Below, piece by piece: positions 14,157 through 38,147 of a stretch of 64,000 nt of DNA. The DNA is taken from positions 1,054,001-1,118,000 of the forward strand of contig NC_021921.1 of the NCBI RefSeq assembly GCF_000470655.1, in the 5' to 3' direction. The DNA is from Halorhabdus tiamatea SARL4B (GTDB taxonomy: Archaea > Halobacteriota > Halobacteria > Halobacteriales > Haloarculaceae). Position 1 is the stretch's first letter; each line of letters opens with the position of its first letter. Both the position numbers and the translations under genes were made by a program. The notes beneath the pieces were generated by a model, which ran no database searches, was not told the DNA's origin, and worked only from the letters and a program-made list of their open reading frames with translations.

Positions 14157-15446
14157 GTGCGACTCGTCCAGGTCACGATCCCGGCGGGCAAACGCGAGGC
14201 GATCGAGGCGGCACTCGAGGACGTCGACGTCGAGTACGTCCTCACCGACGAGACCAGCGGTCGGAAGTACACTGCCATCGCGTACATCCCGTTACCGACC
14301 AACGCCGTCGAACCGGTCCTGGAGAAACTCCGGGAGGCCGGCATCGACGAGCAGGCCTACACCGTCGTCGTCGAGGCCAACACCGTCATCTCACGGCGCT
14401 TCGAGGAACTCCAGGATCGTTACGCCGAAGAGAAAAGCGAGGAACGCATCGCCCGCGAGGAACTCACCTCCAAGGCCGCAGACCTCGCCCCGGCGACCTG
14501 GAGTTACGCTATCCTGACGGTCGTCTCGGCCGTGATCGCGACCGCCGGCCTCCTGCTCGACTCCCCGGCCGTCATCGTCGGGTCGATGGTGATCGCGCCA
14601 CTGATCGGGCCCGCGATGGCCGCGAGCGTCGGGACCGTCGTCGACGACCACGAGCTGTTCCGGCGGGGCGTCGGGCTCCAGATCGCCGGCCTGGGACTGG
14701 CCGTGATGAGCGCGGCCGCTTTCGCTTTCGTGGTCAAGAACCTGTTTCTTGTCCCGCCAGGACTCGACGTGACCGAGATTCCGGCCGTCCGCGAGCGACT
14801 GCTGCCGGACTTCCTCTCGCTTGTCGTCGCGCTGGGGGCCGGCGTGGCGGGCGTCGTCAGCCTCTCGACGGGCGTCTCGACGGCCCTGGTCGGCGTCATG
14901 ATCGCCGTCGCGTTGATCCCGCCGGCGGCGACGGTGGGCATCGGCATCGCGTGGGGGCTGCCCGCCGTCAGCCTCGGGTCGGGCGTGCTGACGCTGGTGA
15001 ACGTCCTCTCGATCAACCTCGCCGCGCTGGCGGTGCTGTGGTACATGGGCTATCGGCCGACCTACTGGTTTCGGGAGGACGAGGCGCGGGCGAGCACGCT
15101 CAAACGGTTCCTCGCGCTCGCGGCCGCCATCGCCGTCCTGTCGCTGTTTCTGGGCGGCGTGACCTACGACACCTATACTCGCGCCACCGTCGACGGCCAA
15201 ATCGACGAGGCAGTCCGGGACGTGATCGAGGAGACGCCGACAGCGACGCTTCACTCGGTGTCGGCCGAGCGGACCGGCGGACTGTTCTTCCGACAGACCG
15301 ACCGAGTCGTCGTCACGGTCGGCGTGCCGCCGGGGGAGTCGCCGCCGGACCTCCGGGACCGACTCGACGACCGACTCGACGGGAGCCTCGACCGGGACGT
15401 GACCACGGAACTGCGATACGTGACGACCGAGGTCGCCGGTAGTTGA
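14157..15446 (+). CDS. DUF389 / TIGR00341 membrane protein
   Basis: This 429-residue membrane protein has a cytoplasmic ferredoxin-like N-terminal domain (about 1-100, VRLVQVTIPAGKREAIEAAL). Five or six membrane helices follow (from WSYAILTVVSAVIATAGLLL to about FLALAAAIAVLSLFLG), including the conserved SPAVIVGSMVIAPLIGPAMA stretch that defines DUF389, and then a soluble tail. The function of the family is unknown. The GTG at 14157 is preferred because homology starts there; an ATG at 14079 would add 26 residues. The upstream region is divergent from the phosphatase gene. Confidence 0.82.
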   Translation: MRLVQVTIPAGKREAIEAALEDVDVEYVLTDETSGRKYTAIAYIPLPTNAVEPVLEKLREAGIDEQAYTVVVEANTVISRRFEELQDRYAEEKSEERIAREELTSKAADLAPATWSYAILTVVSAVIATAGLLLDSPAVIVGSMVIAPLIGPAMAASVGTVVDDHELFRRGVGLQIAGLGLAVMSAAAFAFVVKNLFLVPPGLDVTEIPAVRERLLPDFLSLVVALGAGVAGVVSLSTGVSTALVGVMIAVALIPPAATVGIGIAWGLPAVSLGSGVLTLVNVLSINLAALAVLWYMGYRPTYWFREDEARASTLKRFLALAAAIAVLSLFLGGVTYDTYTRATVDGQIDEAVRDVIEETPTATLHSVSAERTGGLFFRQTDRVVVTVGVPPGESPPDLRDRLDDRLDGSLDRDVTTELRYVTTEVAGS

Positions 15447-15471: not shown

Positions 15472-15485
15472 CAAACGAACGTTTG
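15472..15485. promoter_or_regulatory. CAAACG-NN-CGTTTG element before the SIMPL gene
   Basis: CAAACG and CGTTTG arms flank AA, 46 bp before the SIMPL-protein start. A TATA-like CTATATG follows at about 15499. The same arms with spacer CG occur at 34413-34426 in another promoter. It is a candidate operator placed just upstream of BRE/TATA. Confidence 0.5.
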
Positions 15486-15531: not shown

Positions 15532-16272
15532 ATGCAGATAAACAGATCGACCCTCCTGGTGTCCGCCGTGGCGGTACTGTTGCTCGCCGCGGTGGGCGCC
15601 GCGACGGCCGTCACGCCCACAGCACAGTCCGACCAGCCAGCCAAACAGATCGACGTCGCCGCGTCGGCGGAGGTCTCGGCCCAGCCCGATCAGGCCCTGG
15701 TCCGACTCGGCGTCGTCGCGACCGCCGAAGACGTCCAGACCGCCCGCGATCGGGTCGCCGAGAACGTCTCAGCGGTCCGTTCGGCACTGGATGAGCTGAA
15801 CGTCTCAACCGAGCAGATCGAGACCGCGTACTACGACATCGGCGAAGTGCACGAGCGCCCCGAGACCGAAGGCGCGAGTGAATTCCGTGCCGTCCACACG
15901 CTGGAAGTCACGCTGAACGATACCGACCGCGTCGGCGAGATCATCGACGGAGCGGTCGACAGCGGTGCCAACCGCGTCGACGGCGTCTCCTTTACGCTCT
16001 CGGCGGAGAAGCGTCACGAACTTCGCCAGGATGCCCTGGAGAAAGCAATGGACCGCGCCCGGACCGATGGCGATACCCTCGCCAACAGTTCCGATCTCCG
16101 GGTCGTCAGTGCGTCCTCGATCAGCGCCAGCGACGCCAGCGTAACCCCGTACCGCGTCGAGCAAACGATGCTCGAGGCTGCCGGTGACGCTGCCGCCTCG
16201 ACGACGGTCGAGAGCGGTCCCGTCGACGTGAGTGCGTCCGTCCAGGTCGTCTACAACGCGACCAGCGCCTGA
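15532..16272 (+). CDS. SIMPL-domain (DUF541) exported protein
   Basis: This 246-residue protein begins with a Sec-type signal or membrane anchor (STLLVSAVAVLLLAAVGAATA, about residues 6-26). A SIMPL domain (about 38-243) follows, with the typical start IDVAASAEVSAQPDQALVRLGV and the later VDGVSFTLSAEKRHELRQDALEKAMDRA segment. The family forms oligomeric, periplasm-like or surface proteins of uncertain role, linked in bacteria to membrane stress or interleukin-receptor-associated-kinase binding. It stands alone with its own promoter and the palindrome at 15472. Enzymatic activity is not expected. Confidence 0.85.
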   Translation: MQINRSTLLVSAVAVLLLAAVGAATAVTPTAQSDQPAKQIDVAASAEVSAQPDQALVRLGVVATAEDVQTARDRVAENVSAVRSALDELNVSTEQIETAYYDIGEVHERPETEGASEFRAVHTLEVTLNDTDRVGEIIDGAVDSGANRVDGVSFTLSAEKRHELRQDALEKAMDRARTDGDTLANSSDLRVVSASSISASDASVTPYRVEQTMLEAAGDAAASTTVESGPVDVSASVQVVYNATSA

Positions 16273-29147: not shown

Positions 29148-29933
29148 ATGGACTCCAATGAGGAAATAGCACCTGACGTGCGCTCGATCCTCTCGGCCGC
29201 ACGGGATCGCGGCGGGGCGTCGGGCACGGTGGACGTGACGGCCCGCTCGCTGTCGGCGGCCTTCGATCGTGCGGAGCGCGACGGTCGAGTCCCGACGATC
29301 ACCGAGGTCAAGCCGACGAGTCCGACCACGGCGGGGCGACACGACGGCGACCCGGTCGAACTTGCGACGGCGATGGTCGAGCACGGCGCGGCGGCACTGT
29401 CGGTGCTGACCGAACCCGAGCACTTCGGGGGGTCGCCAGAGACCCTCTGCCGGGTCCGGGAGGCCGTCGACGTGCCCGTCCTCCGGAAGGACTTCATCCT
29501 CTACGAGGAACAACTCGACGTCGTCGAAGCCGATCTCGTCCTCCTCATCGTCCGGTTTCTCGAGGAAGCGGGGACGGACGACCTCGACGACTTGATCGAC
29601 GCCGCGCGCGATCGCGGGTTCCAGGTACTCGTCGAGGCCCACTCCCGGGCAGAAGTCGAGGCCGCCGTCGAGGCCGGCGCGGAGTTCGTCGGTGTGAACA
29701 ACCGTGATCTCGCGAAACTCGACGTCGACCTCGAAACGTTCGAGTCGGTCGCGCCCGCAGTCGGCGACGACGTGACGCTGATCGCCGAGAGCGGGATCGA
29801 GACACCGGCGGACGTCCGGCGGATGCGCGCGGCCGGCGCGGACGGGCTGTTGATCGGTTCGGCGATCATGGACGGCGACGTGGCGGCGAACACGCAAGCA
29901 CTTACCACACCGACGGAGACACACAACCAATGA
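29148..29933 (+). CDS. trpC: indole-3-glycerol-phosphate synthase
   Basis: This 261-residue TIM-barrel enzyme converts CdRP to indole-3-glycerol phosphate in tryptophan synthesis. Conserved strands include [13 protein letters not shown] (catalytic lysine), [31 protein letters not shown] (second lysine), [15 protein letters not shown] and VGVNNRDL with the catalytic Asn. The phosphate-binding end [30 protein letters not shown] is also present. It overlaps trpB by the ATGA arrangement and is the first gene of trpCBA. The N-terminus is shorter than in bacteria, as usual in archaea. The upstream TGTACG repeat may regulate the operon. Confidence 0.95.
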
Positions 29934-31180
29934 CCACGAACGAGACTAACGGCAGATTCGGCGGGTACGGGGGCCAGTACGTCCCCGAAGCACTGATGCC
30001 CGCCATCGAGGAGCTTCGAGACGCCTACGAACGCTACGTCCTCGAGAACGAGGACGGGTTCATGGACGAACTCCGTGCGCACCTCGCGGACTTCGGCGGT
30101 CGGCCTACGCCGTTACAGCGGGCCGACCAGTTGAGCGAGCGTTACGACGCCGAGGTCTACCTCAAACGCGAGGACTTGCTCCACGGCGGGGCACACAAAC
30201 TCAACAACGCCCTCGGGCAGGTCCTGCTCGCGAAGTACATGGGCAAGGAGCGAATCATCGCCGAGACGGGGGCCGGCCAGCACGGGACGGCGACCGCGAT
30301 GGCCGCCGCCCACCTCGACATGCCCGCCGAGATCTTCATGGGCGAAACCGACATCGCCCGCCAGCGCCCCAACGTCTTCCGGATGGAACTCAACGGCGCG
30401 ACGGTCACGCCGGTGACGACCGGCCGCGGTACCCTGAAGGAGGCCATCAGCGAGACGATGCGCGACTGGGCCGAAAACGTCGAGGACACCCACTACGTCA
30501 TCGGCTCGATCGTCGGCCCGGACCCGTTCCCGCGAATGGTCCGGGACTTCCAGTCGGTCATCGGCGACGAGACCCACGAGCAGATCCTCGCGAAAACCGG
30601 CGACACCCCCGATTCGATCGTCGCGTGTGCCGGCGGCGGCTCGAACACGATGGGTGCCTTCCACGAATTCAGAGACAAGGAGGACGTGGACCTGATCGCC
30701 GTCGAGGCCGGCGGATCCTCGCTCGAAGTCGACGAAGAGGCGGGCGTCGCACCCAACTCCGCCACCCTGTCGACAGGCGAGGAGGGCGTCCTCCACGGCG
30801 CGCGGACGAAACTCCTCCAGGACGAGGACGGCCAGATCATGGAGTCCCACAGCGTTTCGGCGGGCCTGGACTACTCGGGCGTCGGCCCGGAACTCGCCTA
30901 TCTCGTCGACGAGGGACGCGTCGAGGCGGTCAACGTCGACGACGAGACCGCCCTCGAAGCCTTCCACCGCGTCTCGCGACTCGAAGGTGTCATTCCCGCG
31001 CTGGAGACCGCCCACGCCTTCGGCTATCTCGAAGAGAATCCCGACGCTGTCGGCGACATTACCATCGTCAACGTCTCGGGGCGCGGTGACAAAGACCTAG
31101 AGAGCGTCGTCGCAGAGACCGAAGAGCGCGATCTCGACGTCGAGCCTGCGTCGAGCGTCTTCCAGGAGGCCGGAGAATGA
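29930..31180 (+). CDS. trpB: tryptophan synthase beta chain
   Basis: This 416-residue PLP enzyme condenses indole and serine to tryptophan. It starts with the family hallmark [22 protein letters not shown] and the [20 protein letters not shown] segment containing the PLP lysine (in HKLNN). [10 protein letters not shown] and the phosphate loop [15 protein letters not shown] follow. The sequence is of the canonical TrpB1 type that pairs with TrpA. It overlaps trpC and trpA by four bases each (ATGA), giving a tightly coupled operon. It forms the alpha2beta2 complex with the TrpA encoded next. All key residues seen are intact. Confidence 0.96.
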
Positions 31181-32016
31181 CCGCAAACACCGAGATCGGG
31201 GGTGTCTTCGAATCTGGCGATCCGGCGTTCATCCCGTATCTGGTCGCCGGCGACCCGAACTACGAGGCCTCCCTGGAATACGTCGAGGCCTTAGAACGCG
31301 GCGGAGCCGACGTCATCGAACTCGGGCTTCCCTTCTCGGAACCGATCGCCGAGGGACCGACGATCCAGAACGCGATCGTCCGGTCGCTTTCGGCGGGGAT
31401 AACGCCCGACCGGTTCTTCGCGTTCGTCGAGGAGCTGGACGTCGAGATTCCGCTGGTCTGTATGACCTACTACAATCTGATCTACCAGTACGGTAGTGAG
31501 GCAGGCCCCCAAGCGTTCGTCGAGCGCGCCGCGGCGGCGGGCATCTCGGGACTGGTCGTCCCGGACCTCCCGGCCGAGGAGGCCGACCCGCTCCGGGACG
31601 CCTGCGACGAGTTCGGGCTGGATCTGGTCTTCATCGTCGCGCCGACGACGCGCGGCGACCGCCTCGAAACCATCATGGAGCAGGTCTCGGGGTACGTCTA
31701 CGTCCAGGCCCGCCTCGGGACGACGGGCGCTCGGAGTGACGTCAGCGATCAGACCGACGAGAGCCTCGCGCGCCTGCGGGAGTGGGACGTCCCCAAGGCC
31801 GTCGGCTTCGGCATCAAGACCGGCGAGCACGCCGAGCGGATCGTCTCGGCGGGCGCGGACGGCATCATCGTCGGGAGCGCGCTGGTCGACATCGTCGCCG
31901 AAGGGGCCGAGAGCGGCGAACCGGTCGAGACCATCGCCGAGCGACTCGAAGCGAAGGCCCAGGAACTCAAAGACGGGGCACTCCGGGGGGTGCCCACGGC
32001 GGAATCAAACGATTAA
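31177..32016 (+). CDS. trpA: tryptophan synthase alpha chain
   Basis: This 279-residue TIM-barrel subunit cleaves indole-3-glycerol phosphate and passes indole to TrpB. The sequence shows [19 protein letters not shown], the catalytic glutamate in [19 protein letters not shown], and the Asp loop [38 protein letters not shown] and the phosphate site [27 protein letters not shown] follow. It overlaps trpB by ATGA and ends the operon, which then converges on a lipoprotein gene. The first Glu and Asp of the active site are both present, so the protein should be active. Confidence 0.96.
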
Positions 32017-32060
32017 GCGACCCGTTCAGGCAGTGTCTGTGGGATCGAACGGGCAGCCGA

Positions 32061-32822
32061 TCACGCGCCGGGACAGCCCCCCTGCCAGGTCTCGCCGGTG
32101 ATCGCGGGGTCGTCGACGTGGACTGGCTCGCCGTACGCCTCGTAGTCGATCATCACGTTCGCCGTGGCCTCCCCGCCGTTGCCCGAAATCTGGATCTGCA
32201 GGAGCGACCGAACCGGCCGGGAGGTCTCCTGATCGACCCAGAGTTTGGCGGTGATGTTCTCGACGGTGGCGTCCGTGTTCGCGAGGTCTGTCTGACTCTG
32301 TCCGGGCAGTGAGGAGACCGTCTCCTGTGACGGGTGAGCGACGATGACCGCCGTCTCCTCGCCGTCGATGGTCGCCGTCCCGTCCCAGTAGACGTTCGTC
32401 TGCTCGAACAACTCGACCTGGCGACCCAGCGGCGTTAGCGACAGCCACTCGACGTCGGTCGACTGGTTTTGCGTGCCCCACCCGGACCACGGGCTGGGAC
32501 ACTTCGTGTAAACGGTCCGCTCGTCGAGGTAACTCGTCACAGTTCGACCTTGGGAACTCGTGTTCATCCGCATTCGCTGGCTCGTCCGGTTGACGACGCC
32601 GTCGCTGTCGACCGAGAGCGACCGAGAGCGTCCCTCGGCCGACGCCGAGACGTCGGCGTCCATCGACATCCGATAGGTGTCGACGTTTTCGAGTGCGTCG
32701 ACCGTCTCGTTTCGGACCTCGAGGGCGCGGTCGTCACTCGGCGGCTGGTCGTCGCCGAGCATGCCACACCCCGCGAGGGCGATCAGGGCAGCGAGGAGGA
32801 CAGCGGGGACTGCGCGGTGCAT
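32061..32822 (-). CDS. haloarchaeal LppX/LolA-like lipoprotein
   Basis: This 253-residue protein has a lipoprotein signal (MHRAVPAVLLAALIALAGC) and a domain that resembles outer-membrane LolA/LppX-type lipid-binding folds: ENVDTYRMSMDADVSASAEG, VVNRTSQRMRMNTSSQGRTVTSYLDERTVY and IDGEETAVIVAHPS. Haloarchaea carry many such lipoproteins (DUF7537-like) of unknown function outside the membrane. The ATG at 32822 starts the signal; an upstream ATG would add 18 residues. It is convergent with trpA, so it is unrelated to tryptophan synthesis. A role in lipid or hydrophobic ligand binding is inference. Confidence 0.7.
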   Translation of the reverse strand: MHRAVPAVLLAALIALAGCGMLGDDQPPSDDRALEVRNETVDALENVDTYRMSMDADVSASAEGRSRSLSVDSDGVVNRTSQRMRMNTSSQGRTVTSYLDERTVYTKCPSPWSGWGTQNQSTDVEWLSLTPLGRQVELFEQTNVYWDGTATIDGEETAVIVAHPSQETVSSLPGQSQTDLANTDATVENITAKLWVDQETSRPVRSLLQIQISGNGGEATANVMIDYEAYGEPVHVDDPAITGETWQGGCPGA

Positions 32823-32934
32823 ACAGTCCAATGTGGCCACACGACAGCTAATAAACCTTCTCGTGTCGAAAGACACCGCAGCAACGCGCCGGGACCGGAA
32901 CGCCCATTACCGTCACTTGCCACAGCATCACACA

Positions 32935-33729
32935 ATGACTGCCGGGAAAGACGCACGCCTGACACGTATTGGTACAGGGGGCCGATACCTCGTCGTTCCG
33001 ATGGACCACGGCCTGACGATGGGGCCAGTCACGGGACTCCAAGCCCTCGAATCGACCGTCGACGCGATCACGCGCGGCGGCGCGGACGCCGTCCTGACCC
33101 AGAAAGGCGTCGCCGATCGCGTCCACGGCAACCTCAACGACGCGGGCTACGTCGTCCACCTCAACGGCTCGACGACGATCGGTCCCGACGAAGAGGACAA
33201 GCGCAAGACCGGCACCGTCGAGGACGCCGTCCGGGCCGGAGCCGACGCCGTCTCCTTTCACATCAACGTCGGCAGCGAGTACGAGCCCGACCAGCTCACC
33301 CAGCTCGCCGAGGTCACGGGCGAGGCCGACCGCCTCGGGATGCCCGTCCTCGCGATGGCCTACGCCCGCGGCCGGGGCATCGACGAGTCCGACCCCGAGG
33401 CACTGGCTCACGCTGTCCGGCTCGCCGAGGAGGTCGGCGCGGACGTGATCAAGACGGCCTACAGCGGCGACGCCGACTCCTTCGAGCGCGTCGCGGCCGC
33501 CTCGGCCAAACCCGTCGTCATCGCCGGGGGATCGAAGGGGACGGACGAGGAAACCCTGGAGATGGTCCGCGGCGCGATGGACGCAGGCGCGGCCGGAATC
33601 TCGATGGGACGGTCTATTTTCCAGCACGAGGATCCAGAAGCGATCACCACCGCCGTCTCCGCGGTCGTTCACGACGACGCGTCCGTCGAAACGGCACTCG
33701 AGGCGGCCGGACTTGGCGAGGACGCCTGA
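32935..33729 (+). CDS. 2-amino-3,7-dideoxy-D-threo-hept-6-ulosonate synthase
   Basis: This 264-residue class I aldolase-type enzyme (ADH synthase) makes the first committed compound of the archaeal alternative shikimate pathway. Family marks are LVVPMDHGLTMGPVTGL, DAVLTQKGVADRV, ADAVSFHINVGSEYE and the Schiff-base lysine in GADVIKTAYSGD. KPVVIAGGSKGTDEETLEMVRGAMDAGAAG forms the phosphate-binding end. The ATG at 32935 starts homology. The 3-dehydroquinate synthase II gene, which uses its product, lies 3.2 kb away, and aroD follows. A fructose-bisphosphate aldolase class I is the alternative reading, but the neighbours favour the shikimate route. Confidence 0.87.
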   Translation: MTAGKDARLTRIGTGGRYLVVPMDHGLTMGPVTGLQALESTVDAITRGGADAVLTQKGVADRVHGNLNDAGYVVHLNGSTTIGPDEEDKRKTGTVEDAVRAGADAVSFHINVGSEYEPDQLTQLAEVTGEADRLGMPVLAMAYARGRGIDESDPEALAHAVRLAEEVGADVIKTAYSGDADSFERVAAASAKPVVIAGGSKGTDEETLEMVRGAMDAGAAGISMGRSIFQHEDPEAITTAVSAVVHDDASVETALEAAGLGEDA

Positions 33730-33740
33730 CGTCTGAGTTT

Positions 33741-34346
33741 CTACGCGGACTGGATCCGATCGACGACCCATAGCACCGAAAGCACGATCAGCCCGCCGGC
33801 GAGGAAAACTGCCACGAGCACGATCGGATCCGGCGCGACCGGCTCGACGGCGCTCTGATACTCGCTGGCGTTCACGCCAGTCGAGGTCACCAGACGGGAC
33901 TGATCCAGCCCGAATCGATCGAAAAGGACGACGATCGCGAGCGCGCCGACGGCGAGTGCAGCGATCACGCCGACGAGCCGTTCCAGTAGCGCTCGCAGCG
34001 ACGATTCGGGGTCCCCGCCGGCGAATAGCACCAACGCCTCGTCGGTCGGCGCGTAGACGTCCATCTCCGCACCGTTTTGTCCGTACCAGGTGTCGACGAC
34101 CGTCACGAGGTCGGCGGCTTCGAGTTTCGTGAGGTGGTACTGGACGTTCTGGAGCGTGGTCCCGACGTCTTCGGTGAGTTCCGAGGCCGGCCGGGGGTCG
34201 GCGTGTAAGGACTGGAGGATGGTCCGGGCCGTCTCCGAGCCCAGGGCGTCGAACACCTCGTCGGCGCGCTCGTCGTCCAGGGCGAGCATCGACGGCTCGC
34301 GGTCGTCGGGCGAGACGTCCGGCCGCCCGGGGAGCAGGCGACTCAC
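33741..34346 (-). CDS. membrane-anchored ArsR-type transcriptional regulator
   Basis: This 201-residue regulator has an N-terminal winged helix (about residues 25-105) with ALGSETARTILQSLHADPRPASELTEDVGTTLQNVQYHLTKLEAADLV as the DNA-binding part. Two C-terminal membrane helices follow (LVGVIAALAVGALAIVVLF and PIVLVAVFLAGGLIVLSVLWV). The GTG at 34346 fits common haloarchaeal members; an earlier TTG at 34415 would overlap the operator palindrome. Such membrane-anchored ArsR/HTH proteins may sense envelope signals. A CAAACG-CG-CGTTTG palindrome lies 67 bp upstream, between this gene and the divergent lipoprotein, and is a candidate autoregulatory site. Confidence 0.78.
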   Translation of the reverse strand: MSRLLPGRPDVSPDDREPSMLALDDERADEVFDALGSETARTILQSLHADPRPASELTEDVGTTLQNVQYHLTKLEAADLVTVVDTWYGQNGAEMDVYAPTDEALVLFAGGDPESSLRALLERLVGVIAALAVGALAIVVLFDRFGLDQSRLVTSTGVNASEYQSAVEPVAPDPIVLVAVFLAGGLIVLSVLWVVDRIQSA

Positions 34347-34412
34347 CGGCCACCTCCAGGCTGGTCCATACGCCTCGGCAGGCGGGCGGAGCCCTTGAGT
34401 ATTCGTGGTGAT

Positions 34413-34426
34413 CAAACGCGCGTTTG
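34413..34426. promoter_or_regulatory. CAAACG-CG-CGTTTG palindrome in a divergent promoter
   Basis: A 14-bp perfect palindrome between the divergent regulator (start 34346) and lipoprotein (start 34470) genes. Its six-base arms equal those of the site at 15472-15485. It is a candidate operator for the ArsR-type regulator. Confidence 0.55.
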
Positions 34427-34469
34427 GGTACTCCGGAGGTTAAGGGACGGTGGACACACACGTCCGGAC

Positions 34470-35051
34470 ATGCCCGATCGAGACCTGCTTTCGCTCACCC
34501 TCCTGCTCACCGTCGGGACGGCCGGCTGTCTGGGCGCGATGGACGCGCCGTCACCAACGCCTGCGGGGACGACCCCGGTCGAGACCGTTGGCGAGTGTCC
34601 CGAAGACATCGAACGCCTCGACGCCGGCGTCACGAACGGCTCACTCCCAAGCCAGGACGCCGGCTTCGCGATCGAGGCCGACCGGCGGACCGTCTCACGT
34701 GGCGGCGAACTAACCGTCACACTCGAGAACACCGCCGAGGCGTCCCGGGGGACGGGGACGGAACGTATGTTCGTCCTCCAGCGCCACGTGGGCAAGTGGA
34801 CAACGGTCCTTGGCGCACGCGACGGTCGAACCGGGTGGAACGCGACGCTGGTCACGCACGACCCCGGCGAAGGATACGCCTGGACGATCAGTTTGGACGA
34901 CGAGGGCTTCGCGGAGTGGGGGTACGAGCCCTGTGGCTCGCTGCCGGCGGGCGAGTACCGCTTCGTCTATCACGGCTTCGTCGAACCGGGCGAGTTCGAG
35001 ACCGAGATTCCCGAGCCGTCGATCGCTGTCGCGTTCCGGATCACGAAGTGA
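34470..35051 (+). CDS. hypothetical lipoprotein with Ig-like domain
   Basis: This 193-residue protein starts with a signal ending in a lipobox (LLSLTLLLTVGTAGC). A Pro/Thr-rich linker leads to a beta-sandwich-like domain: GFAIEADRRTVSRGGELTVTLEN, FVLQRHVGKWTTVLGARDG and YAWTISLDDEGFAEWGYEPC. The pattern of alternating strands resembles immunoglobulin-like surface domains of haloarchaea. Two cysteines (near residues 40 and 154) might form a disulfide. It is divergent from the ArsR-type regulator and shares its promoter region with the palindrome, so both may be controlled together. No specific function is recognised. Confidence 0.6.
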   Translation: MPDRDLLSLTLLLTVGTAGCLGAMDAPSPTPAGTTPVETVGECPEDIERLDAGVTNGSLPSQDAGFAIEADRRTVSRGGELTVTLENTAEASRGTGTERMFVLQRHVGKWTTVLGARDGRTGWNATLVTHDPGEGYAWTISLDDEGFAEWGYEPCGSLPAGEYRFVYHGFVEPGEFETEIPEPSIAVAFRITK

Positions 35052-35128
35052 ACAAAAAGCCGCGTTCCGGGGGGACGGTCGCGTTCCGGAGACGTCGTGG
35101 CCCGAACCGCTCTGTCCCGATTCCTGAT

Positions 35129-36811
35129 TCAGTCCTCGGCGAGCAACACGTCTAGGGTGCTCTCGTCGACGTGTTGGCCCTCCCGACCGGCGACGTAGGT
35201 TTTGGCGGCGGCGACGGCACGTCCGGTCCGGGGGTCGCCGATATCGGCGATTCGGTCGGATTCGAGCAAGTCGGCCGTCCAAAACGACTCCTCGTAGTCG
35301 ATCTCGCCGCGGATCAGGCCCCGACACAGTGAGACGAAAACGGTGTTCATCGCGTCTGTGACGTGACTCGCCTCGAATCCGATGCTGTCAGCGAGTTCGC
35401 CCGCGTCGATCGGTTCGCCGCCGGTCGTCGCCGCGAAGAAGACGGCCCCGGCAGCCAGTTCCGGCGCGGCGAACCCGCCGTGGTCCGCCGCCGGTTCGTA
35501 CTGTTCCAGCGTCCGGCGGCTGTCTTCGAGCACTGTTTCGGAGAACGCGACGTCCTCGGCGAGTGCCTCGACGACGTCCGACGGCCCGCGACGTGGGATG
35601 TCGACGGCGGCGATCTCCCCGAGGCGGTCGAGCCACTGGTAGAGTACCCGCGTCCCGAAACCCCGTTCCCTGGCAACGGTCGCTGGATCGAGATCACCGT
35701 CGTTGATCCGGCTGCTTGCGATCAGGGCCGCACCGGCGAATTCGGCGGCGTCCTCGACGGCGACACTTTCGGCGGCGTCACTGACCAGGCCCCGGGCAAA
35801 GAGCCGCACGGACGCGTCGACGTCGAGTGCCTCGACGAGAGCGTCGACCTCGCTGTGGACGGCGTCGATCGTCAGGTCCGCCCCGAGTTCGTCCCGGTCA
35901 CCCGGGATCCAGGCGACGGTCTCGCCGGCGCGCCTGGCCGTGAGTTCGCCGCGATCGGCGAGGTCCTGCAGTCGATCACCGACACGTTCCTCGGGAGCAC
36001 CCAGATCCTCGGCGACCGTCGCCGTGGTCGGGAGTTCGTCCGGGAACATCCCACGGACAGCGTCCATACACGCATCCGCCGAGACGTCCGAAACCCCGCC
36101 GTCCGAGGCGGATGATTTCGCGTCCGGTCGCCCGGTATCCGCGGGCGCTCCCTCCTCGACAGCGTCGGCCTGGTAGCGTCGGGCATCCAGGCCCCCCTCG
36201 TCCAGTACCTCCCGAAAGGCTTTGTACCGGTTCTTGATCGTGACGCCGCCGGCCGCGCCGACGTCCCCAACCTCGTTGGGTCCGATCCCGTCGACGCCGT
36301 TGGCCTCCGCCGCGAGGACGAGTGACGCGCCAGCCGTCTCCGCCGGTGAGGACGCCTCGGCGACGGCGCGGGGTGCCTCCCGGAAGACATCTGTGAGGAT
36401 TCGCTTTCCCGCCGTCCCGACTGATGCCGACAGATCAAGGGAGTCGGCGTAGCGCTCGACCAGCGTGTCGGGGCGCTCCGGGGGGTGGTCGATGTCGAGC
36501 CGGTCGGCGACCGCCTCGATCTGTTCGGGGAGGCGTTCGGGATCTAGTTCGGTCGCCTCCGGATCCGCGAGCAGATCGACCCACGGTTCGACGATGTCCC
36601 GGCCGGTGATCGGGAGGCCGTCTTCCCGGCAGGAGAGTGCGAGTACCGTCGGCGCAATCCGGGCGAACTGTGCCGCGTCGACGTCTGCCTCCCCACGGAG
36701 ATGATCGAGACGGACGCGCGTGATCTGTAAGGTACTATCGGGGATCTGTAACTTCTCTGCCACGTCGTAGAGCCGGTTTTCGTAGGTTTCGTTGTTTTTT
36801 GATCCTGTCAT
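35129..36811 (-). CDS. TFB-like protein with cyclin-fold repeats
   Basis: This 560-residue protein has no N-terminal zinc ribbon, but its segments resemble the cyclin folds of transcription factor B. LSASVGTAGKRILTDVFREAPRAVAEASSPAETAGASLVLAAEANG and GGVTIKNRYKAFREVL look like one repeat ending in a TFB-type helix-turn-helix. A similar pair lies at 370-520, and a winged-helix-like part is in the middle (ATVAEDLGAPEERVGDRLQDLADRGELTARRAG). I infer a transcription-factor-like role. It is divergent from 3-dehydroquinate synthase, sharing a 172-bp promoter region with a 26-bp tandem repeat. A family search is needed to confirm. Confidence 0.55.
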   Translation of the reverse strand: MTGSKNNETYENRLYDVAEKLQIPDSTLQITRVRLDHLRGEADVDAAQFARIAPTVLALSCREDGLPITGRDIVEPWVDLLADPEATELDPERLPEQIEAVADRLDIDHPPERPDTLVERYADSLDLSASVGTAGKRILTDVFREAPRAVAEASSPAETAGASLVLAAEANGVDGIGPNEVGDVGAAGGVTIKNRYKAFREVLDEGGLDARRYQADAVEEGAPADTGRPDAKSSASDGGVSDVSADACMDAVRGMFPDELPTTATVAEDLGAPEERVGDRLQDLADRGELTARRAGETVAWIPGDRDELGADLTIDAVHSEVDALVEALDVDASVRLFARGLVSDAAESVAVEDAAEFAGAALIASSRINDGDLDPATVARERGFGTRVLYQWLDRLGEIAAVDIPRRGPSDVVEALAEDVAFSETVLEDSRRTLEQYEPAADHGGFAAPELAAGAVFFAATTGGEPIDAGELADSIGFEASHVTDAMNTVFVSLCRGLIRGEIDYEESFWTADLLESDRIADIGDPRTGRAVAAAKTYVAGREGQHVDESTLDVLLAED

Positions 36812-36916
36812 GTCGAGGGCTTCTGCGTCCACGGTCTTAACTGTTGAACGAACGGACAGAAAACTGACAGCACGGGCGACTCGCCCTGTCAACGCCGGCC
36901 CGACGGAATCGTGTGT

Positions 36917-36970
36917 TCCGCCACGTTCAAGCCGGACCGCCGAATCCGCCACGTTCAAGCCGGACCGCCG
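36917..36970. repeat. 26-bp tandem direct repeat, 28-bp period
   Basis: An identical 26-base unit (beginning TCCGCCACGTTCAAGCCGG) occurs at 36917-36942 and 36945-36970, two bases apart. The second copy ends 13 bp before the 3-dehydroquinate synthase ATG. It is either a regulatory repeat or a slippage product. Confidence 0.85.
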
Positions 36971-36983
36971 CGAGCGTGGACAC

Positions 36984-38147
36984 ATGACACGCTCGGTGTG
37001 GCTCAAAGCCGACGATGCCGTCGGCGACTGGGAAGCGCGCAAGCGACGCATCACCGCCGGCCTCGAAGCCGGCATCGACTGGGTACTCGTCGACGAACAC
37101 GACGTCGACCGCGTCCGAGAACTCGGCGAGGTCAACGTCGCCGCCTTCGCTGGCGACGACGTCCACGTCATGGACGCCGAGGGAACGGCCGAGTCGACTG
37201 CCGACGCAGTAATCGTCGGCAAGGATGGCGAGGGCGACGGCACGGTCGGCCTGCCCTCTGACTTCTCGGGGTCGGCCGACCTCTCGGCGCTCCGCAGCGG
37301 CGGGGCAACGGGCGGGTACGTCCACATCTTCGACGAGGACTACGAGGCCTTCGCCGAGGCCGTCGCCGACGAGGCCGACTACACGATGGTCGTCGCCGAG
37401 GACTGGCAGATCATCCCACTGGAGAACCTCATCGCCCGCGTCGGCGAGGAGACAGAACTCATCGCCGGCGTCCAGACCGCCGAGGACGCCCGCACCGCCT
37501 ACGAGACCCTGGAGATCGGGGCCGACGCGGTCCTGCTTGACACCGACAACCCCGACGAGATCCGCGAGACCTGCGAGGTCCGTGATGCGGTGGGTCGAGA
37601 AACCCTCGACATGGAGTACGCCGAGATCACCGCGATCGAACAGACCGGCTCGGCCGACCGGGTCTGCGTGGATACGGGATCCATCATGGATCACGACGAG
37701 GGGATGCTGGTGGGCTCGATGGCCCGCGGGCTGTTCTTCGTCCACGCCGAGACCGCCGAATCGCCGTACGTCGCCTCCCGTCCCTTCCGGGTCAACGCCG
37801 GCGCGGTCCACGCCTACGCCCGGACGCCGGGCGGCGAGACGACGTACCTCTCGGAGTTGTCGAGTGGCGACGAGGTCCAGGTCGTCGACCGTGACGGCAA
37901 CACTCGCGAGGCGCTCGTCGGCCGCGTCAAGATCGAGAAGCGCCCGATGTTCCGGCTCCAGGCCGAGACCGAGAGTGGCGACCGCATCGAGACGCTGCTG
38001 CAGAACGCCGAGACGATCAAGGTCGCCACGCCGGAGGGTCGGATCGCCGTGACTGACCTGGAGGTCGGCGACGAGGTGCTGGTCTACCACGAGGACACGG
38101 CCCGGCACTTCGGCGAGGCTGTCGAAGAGAGCATCATCGAAAAGTAG
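36984..38147 (+). CDS. 3-dehydroquinate synthase II
   Basis: This 387-residue enzyme oxidatively deaminates and cyclises the ADH-synthase product to 3-dehydroquinate with NAD+, in the archaeal shikimate route. The sequence matches DHQ synthase II: VWLKADDAVGDWEARKRRITAGLEAG, YTMVVAEDWQIIPLENLIA, GADAVLLDTDNPDEI, DRVCVDTGSIMDHDEGMLVGSMA, FRVNAGAVHAYA and EKRPMFRLQAE. The ATG at 36984 follows the tandem repeat. ADH synthase lies 3.2 kb upstream in the same orientation and aroD is 0.5 kb downstream on the other strand. The protein is close to the usual length of about 390 residues. Confidence 0.93.
   Translation: MTRSVWLKADDAVGDWEARKRRITAGLEAGIDWVLVDEHDVDRVRELGEVNVAAFAGDDVHVMDAEGTAESTADAVIVGKDGEGDGTVGLPSDFSGSADLSALRSGGATGGYVHIFDEDYEAFAEAVADEADYTMVVAEDWQIIPLENLIARVGEETELIAGVQTAEDARTAYETLEIGADAVLLDTDNPDEIRETCEVRDAVGRETLDMEYAEITAIEQTGSADRVCVDTGSIMDHDEGMLVGSMARGLFFVHAETAESPYVASRPFRVNAGAVHAYARTPGGETTYLSELSSGDEVQVVDRDGNTREALVGRVKIEKRPMFRLQAETESGDRIETLLQNAETIKVATPEGRIAVTDLEVGDEVLVYHEDTARHFGEAVEESIIEK

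Follow-up and report, generated by a model that had tools for sequence, protein, structure and literature searches.

A palindrome between the genes of a membrane-anchored ArsR-like regulator and a lipoprotein is probably an operator of a haloarchaeal envelope-gene set

The 14-bp palindrome between the divergent genes for the regulator RegH and a lipoprotein is likely to be the operator of a family of autoregulated, membrane-anchored, ArsR-like (HTH_20) one-component regulators. RegH would be the local member of this family, which probably activates an envelope regulon. The site is one of a much larger set in front of envelope genes, and its reader would be a regulator family, not necessarily RegH alone. 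What the sequence itself shows is the site with its spacing and conservation, the bias of its targets and the predicted architecture of the regulator.

The operator and its occurrence

The window is the whole 64,000-nucleotide stretch of DNA that was analysed. The operator in it has the half-site layout CAAACG-NN-CGTTTG and is flanked by the features listed in Table 1. As the earlier note had described, the palindrome is present, fully self-complementary and located between divergent genes for a regulator and a lipoprotein. Perfect 6-2-6 palindromes are ordinary as a class; the window contains 36 of them, and CAAACG and CGGCGA are the only half-sites that recur. A first-order model of the window predicts 0.0026 occurrences of the exact pattern in the window and 0.13 in 3.146 Mb. 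The pattern is found twice in the window and three times in the genome (3,146,160 bases, 2 contigs), and the reversed control pattern has no match in the same 3,146,160 bases. The third exact copy, at C2:2028465, lies upstream of a Tat-type lipoprotein gene.

Table 1. Features of the RegH/lipoprotein and SIMPL loci (positions in the window)
Feature	Position	Strand	Description
First operator copy	15472-15485	.	CAAACGAACGTTTG; 46 bp upstream of the SIMPL ATG
SIMPL (DUF541, PF04402) exported protein	15532-16272	+	Distant member of the operator set
RegH regulator, 201 aa	33741-34346	-	GTG start at 34346; predicted N-terminal HTH_20/ArsR-like winged helix and two TM segments
Leader mini-ORF MDQPGGGR*	34343-34369	-	8 codons; stop overlaps the regulator start (GTGA)
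CTCAAGGG block	34392-34399	-	Near the predicted TATA position of the regulator promoter; kept in 4/4 species
Operator	34413-34426	.	CAAACGCGCGTTTG, fully self-complementary; 16-bp form TCAAACGCGCGTTTGG at 34412-34427
Weak TATA-like element TTAAGGG	34440-34446	+	Putative; about -30 to -24 of the lipoprotein ATG
Lipoprotein, lipobox TAGC	34470-35051	+	ATG 43 bp from the operator

The 146 genomes of the taxonomic family contain 105 exact sites, compared with 12 matches to the reversed control, and 69 of these genomes have at least one exact site. The picture of a pair of sites, one at SIMPL and one at the regulator, is too narrow, and the operator is one of a wide set. Some exact sites are intragenic or face no start.

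Conservation of the divergent pair

RegH and the lipoprotein are both found in the same four of the seven genomes of the genus and are both absent from the same three, which suggests that the pair is inherited together. The RegH orthologues of three congeners share 67-70% identity with RegH; the remaining three contain paralogues alone, none above 47% identity. In all four genomes that keep the pair the half-sites are exact, with CG, CG, CG and GG as the central dinucleotide. Within the site, 13 of the 14 columns are invariant among the four species, compared with 55 of the 131 other columns in an alignment of the region. Comparison of orthologous intergenic regions had been proposed as a check on the palindrome, and within the genus it upholds the site. 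A second genus (g12) has the same synteny in three genomes, where the lipoprotein ATG is 43 bp away from the best palindrome-like stretch. These stretches have 3, 5 and 6 mismatches to the 16-mer, and the match is clear only in the first.

The region around the pair (29148-38147) contains genes that we take, from the look of their sequences, to be trpCBA, an ADTH-synthase-like gene (33001-33729) and a DHQ-synthase-II-like gene (36984-38147). RegH-type regulators adjoin such aromatic-pathway genes in other genera too. The 567-aa protein encoded at 35129-36832 on the reverse strand presumably resembles a TFB-type (cyclin-fold) factor.

Spacing and promoter layout

The distance from operator to start codon was counted for 104 of the 105 family sites, with L134 omitted as it is truncated by a contig end. 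Both sides were used (208 flanks), and raw ATG triplets were scored on either side without gene calling. Of the 208 flanks, 51 have an ATG at exactly 43 bp and 86 have one at 42-46 bp, compared with 0-5 ATG triplets at each of the other offsets from 20 to 99. Outside the family, 32 sites among the matches listed (64 flanks) have 11 ATG triplets at 43 bp and 5 at 42 bp. The looser pattern CAAA-N6-TTTG with an ATG at 42-46 bp has 64 matches in the seven genomes of the genus, compared with 8 for its reversed control.

A promoter profile was built by aligning the 46 non-redundant members of the 51 promoters. Its consensus is T-CAAACG-NN-CGTTTG-A, followed by T at +4, C at +6 and A at +10. A W-T signal occupies +16/+17, which is about -27 from the ATG, the TATA-like signal is weak, and a pyrimidine precedes the ATG. 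The operator apparently sits a short way upstream of the BRE/TATA of leaderless haloarchaeal promoters. A site just upstream of BRE/TATA combined with a leaderless start agrees with what is generally known of haloarchaeal promoters. A site outside BRE/TATA together with a weak TATA is the usual layout for activators in archaea.

Architecture of RegH

The earlier note had described the regulator as a membrane-anchored ArsR-type protein, and domain searches and hydropathy agree. HTH_20 (PF12840) matches residues 58-107 of the longest ORF in Pfam with 46.4 bits against a cut-off of 27, and simple hydropathy predicts TM segments at 124-142 and 175-193. The first TM segment begins about 25 residues after the wing. 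Some of the 53 homologues have a single TM segment above the hydropathy threshold. In the AlphaFold model (overall pLDDT 75.6, pTM 0.50), the winged helix has block means of 91-97 over residues 31-100, and long helices span 113-144 and 174-200. Foldseek and profile matches are to ArsR-like structures such as NolR, PH1932 and CzrA. No HAMP domain was found in RegH by Pfam at E<=0.001.

ArsR/SmtB metalloregulators bind metals through cysteines, for example in the alpha3N CxC motif. Assignment of RegH to this class was rejected: NF033788 scores 39.5 bits against a cut-off of 55, and the 201-aa RegH sequence contains no cysteine. Across 25 aligned members, the recognition-helix region has two invariant residues, Q66 and H71, and three nearly invariant ones, N67, Y70 and L72. 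These shared residues fit a common operator across the regulator family.

A leader ORF before RegH

The operator lies 66 bp from the GTG of RegH and 43 bp from the ATG of a short leader ORF (Table 1). The three congeners with RegH have the same arrangement, with leaders MQQFGGDR, MQQFGGIR and MHHCGGRR, and the distance from leader start to operator is 42-43 bp in all four species, so that the operator stands at promoter distance before the predicted RegH transcript. Three g12 genomes and one g18 genome have a GTG-started ORF of 7-8 codons that overlaps the regulator start, and here the leader start is 46-47 bp from the best palindrome-like stretch (3-6 mismatches). Altogether, a leader ORF of 7-8 codons precedes all eight RegH orthologues examined, in three genera; alternative in-frame starts are present in some of the eight. 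The spacing of the leader and the stop/start overlap suggest a regulator transcript that starts with the leader ORF, and translation of RegH by coupling. Overlapping archaeal genes are reported to be coupled by termination-reinitiation (PMC6728339).

Paralogues and autoregulation

Similar sites precede the starts of several paralogues. The K group (MGKLLPRRGER/MGTLLPRRGER) has its own site at 44 bp in all seven genomes of the genus, with 1-4 mismatches. The L group has one at 42-43 bp in the four cases found, with 2-3 mismatches, and two g22 homologues have the exact 14-mer at 43 bp before their own start. A second taxonomic family includes members with a site at 47-48 bp, these members having been found via the motif. 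A non-circular count was made on 40 members collected by protein search among the matches listed, with RegH excluded. A site with at most 3 mismatches is found 41-52 bp before the start in 14 of the 40 paralogues and in 3 of 400 control windows; with at most 4 mismatches, the counts are 21 of 40 and 8 of 400.

Autoregulation across the whole family was rejected as a reading. Among the ten plasmid homologues examined, from 58 records, the site is good in one, at 44 bp, and poor in another, at 47 bp, and the upstream site is absent from the other eight. It is also absent from the plasmid-borne copy L166 and from the RegU paralogues, where the operator instead lies downstream of the stop. Several, not all, of the membrane-anchored HTH_20 paralogues are probably autoregulated via a similar site. 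For RegH itself, the proposal of an autoregulatory site gains from the symmetric 43-bp spacing and from the sites before these paralogues.

A distinct arrangement is seen at RegU/phosphoesterase loci. At eight of them (L140, L159, L163, L155, L158, L043, L044 and L081), an operator with 0-2 mismatches faces a stretch of non-coding DNA that precedes a convergent phosphoesterase gene. At these loci the operator is downstream of RegU or RegU is missing, and most of them have a CGCTTYGGCYCTC-like block. The non-coding stretch contains a CCGCTTYGGCYCTCC block; among 20 distinct places with this block in the loci examined, 6 have an operator (at most 3 mismatches) about 50 bp upstream. The CCGCTTYGGCCCTCC block also occurs away from the operator (L241-L246, L248-L253), with 39 places in the family compared with 10 for the reversed control. 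The non-coding stretch may possibly give rise to a small RNA or an antisense transcript under the operator. Rfam at gathering thresholds, run on seven RegU/phosphoesterase loci, matched only a CRISPR direct repeat (RF01337) in L060, at 1669-1698 on the reverse strand and about 155 bp from the operator.

SIMPL and the other targets

SIMPL has a site in all seven genomes of the genus, exact in five and in a looser form in two, and the three genomes without RegH keep it. SIMPL is thus very likely a target of the same kind of regulator as RegH. The earlier suggestion of a distant target stands as far as the site is concerned; control by RegH itself does not extend to the three genomes that lack it, where a paralogue may act. 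Provided that this family reads the operator, SIMPL would there have to be served by a paralogue, for which the K group is the simplest candidate. The gene for a DUF389 membrane protein (14157-15446, forward strand) is immediately 5' of SIMPL and its operator, and by eye this order recurs in other genera.

The targets are mostly exported or envelope proteins, as judged from their predicted N-termini. The target set was 79 sides with an ATG at 42-46 bp and an ORF of 40 aa or more, and 355 other called genes of the loci examined served as controls. A hydrophobic N-terminal segment is found in 68 of 79 targets and 65 of 355 controls (Fisher p about 2e-30), and a lipobox with a hydrophobic N-terminus in 39 of 79 and 19 of 355 (Fisher p about 1e-19); related sequences make these observations non-independent, and a coding-score filter was applied to the controls and none to the targets.

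Several Tat lipoproteins have the site in at least two genomes of the genus, and the looser form is found before a small membrane protein in six of seven. In another genus (L046), a similar-looking small membrane protein with a site is followed by a DUF7123 gene (PF23438). Among the targets elsewhere are a lipoprotein with DUF4349 (PF14257), an exported beta-propeller protein (PF09826) and, judged by eye, proteins resembling SIMPL. In four genomes of the genus (L269, L210, L273 and L276), the looser operator stands at 42-43 bp from a short-ORF or non-coding target with a similar promoter, GTGANCNRGGYTTTT. The ORFs of 29-31 aa at these loci are dissimilar between the two species pairs.

One motif with a fixed spacing provides a ready target list and a candidate regulator family for haloarchaea. 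The list includes SIMPL and DUF4349, which are families of unknown function according to Pfam. The motif may also offer a natural case in which several paralogous regulators share one operator.

Proposed mechanism and alternatives

It is proposed that the cytoplasmic winged-helix domains, as a dimer, recognise both CAAACG half-sites. Each of the two predicted divergent transcript starts would lie 43 bp from the end of the bound site, which would be outside BRE/TATA, and the regulator on it would most likely help to recruit TBP/TFB to weak promoters, resulting in activation. One operator would serve both RegH, by autoregulation, and the co-inherited lipoprotein. With operator and spacing in common, one envelope regulon would comprise SIMPL, Tat/Sec lipoproteins, beta-propeller exported proteins and small membrane proteins, and its readers would be RegH and probably also paralogues. 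The RegH message would start with the 8-codon leader, where the stop/start overlap would bring about translational coupling. An envelope signal may be sensed by the membrane part or via the partner lipoprotein. The binder, the transcript starts, the sign, the signal and the coupling are thus the proposed elements of the model. The sign of regulation is the least certain among them, and activation is most likely given the upstream position of the site. A more ambitious reading, which we offer tentatively, is an undescribed haloarchaeal envelope-surveillance regulon. It would consist of an expanded family of membrane-tethered ArsR-like activators that share one operator, placed 43 bp before their own genes and before leaderless genes for lipoproteins, SIMPL and further surface proteins, with RegH and the lipoprotein as a sensor-partner feedback pair and leader-coupled synthesis of RegH.

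Operators are kept at SIMPL and at other targets in genomes without RegH, which argues that RegH is not the sole reader. It is quite conceivable that the main reader is a paralogue, for example of the K group. RegH would then be a younger member, either target-type or modulating, and SIMPL would be outside its own control. The K group has its own site in 7/7 genomes and SIMPL has its site in 7/7, whereas RegH is present in 4/7. However, the recognition helix of RegH is near-identical to that of the other members, and the half-sites of its operator are exact in 4/4 genomes, as expected if RegH is the binder. The reader may instead lie outside the family altogether, as an unrelated soluble transcription factor that binds the operator and co-regulates the envelope genes and these regulators, though we consider this improbable. 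The regulators could then be mere targets, as the link between family and motif is one of sequence, and an IclR-type gene (L050) also has the operator at 43 bp. Only the RegH-type family, however, recurs with a site before its own start among the loci examined, and it does so in several groups and two taxonomic families, the members in the second having been found via the motif.

With the regulator family retained as the reader, the operator could also serve repression until a signal frees the membrane-anchored dimer, which is rather unlikely. Many ArsR-family proteins are repressors. In the Haloferax regulator CsmR, moreover, targets are reported to rise in the deletion despite an upstream site (PMC13286277). 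The site described here, on the other hand, ends outside BRE/TATA next to a weak TATA-like signal, which speaks for activation. A chance palindrome without function would be in keeping with the number of perfect 6-2-6 palindromes in the window, but it is extremely improbable; the 43-bp spacing peak and the conservation speak strongly against it, and the control counts point the same way.

Relation to known systems

The predicted design of RegH, a one-component regulator with a membrane-tethered cytoplasmic DNA-binding domain, is also that of bacterial CadC/ToxR-like activators. These differ from RegH in having another DNA-binding domain and one TM segment. RegH shares its winged-helix domain with ArsR/SmtB proteins, whose operator cores resemble the 6-2-6 geometry; RegH differs from them in scoring below the metalloregulator cut-off, in lacking cysteine and in its predicted membrane anchor. 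No literature on this operator, or on an envelope-stress-type regulon of this kind, was found among the matches listed in searches of open-licence PubMed Central.

CsmR of Haloferax volcanii, also haloarchaeal, acts at a semi-palindromic sequence that, like the operator described here, is located upstream of BRE/TATA (PMC13286277). Its motif, TATCA-N4-TGATA, and its motility and cell-shape targets (PMC13286277) are unlike those of the present set, and the CsmR motif was rejected as the identity of the operator.

ArnR and ArnR1 of Sulfolobus acidocaldarius likewise have an N-terminal HTH and two C-terminal TM segments (PMC6396743). They are paralogous one-component regulators of cell-surface genes with proposed short inverted-repeat boxes (PMC6396743). 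For ArnR, a putative HAMP and a sensing domain are described (PMC6396743), whereas RegH has no HAMP match and a variable loop between its TM segments. The ArnR box is given as TCGAC-N5-GTCGA (PMC6396743), compared with TCAAACG-NN-CGTTTGA here, mostly at 43 bp. Because the HAMP/sensor part was not found and the box differs, RegH is not assigned as an ArnR. ArnR/ArnR1 are nevertheless the closest working analogue found, and the likeness described here is one of architecture, boxes and target genes.
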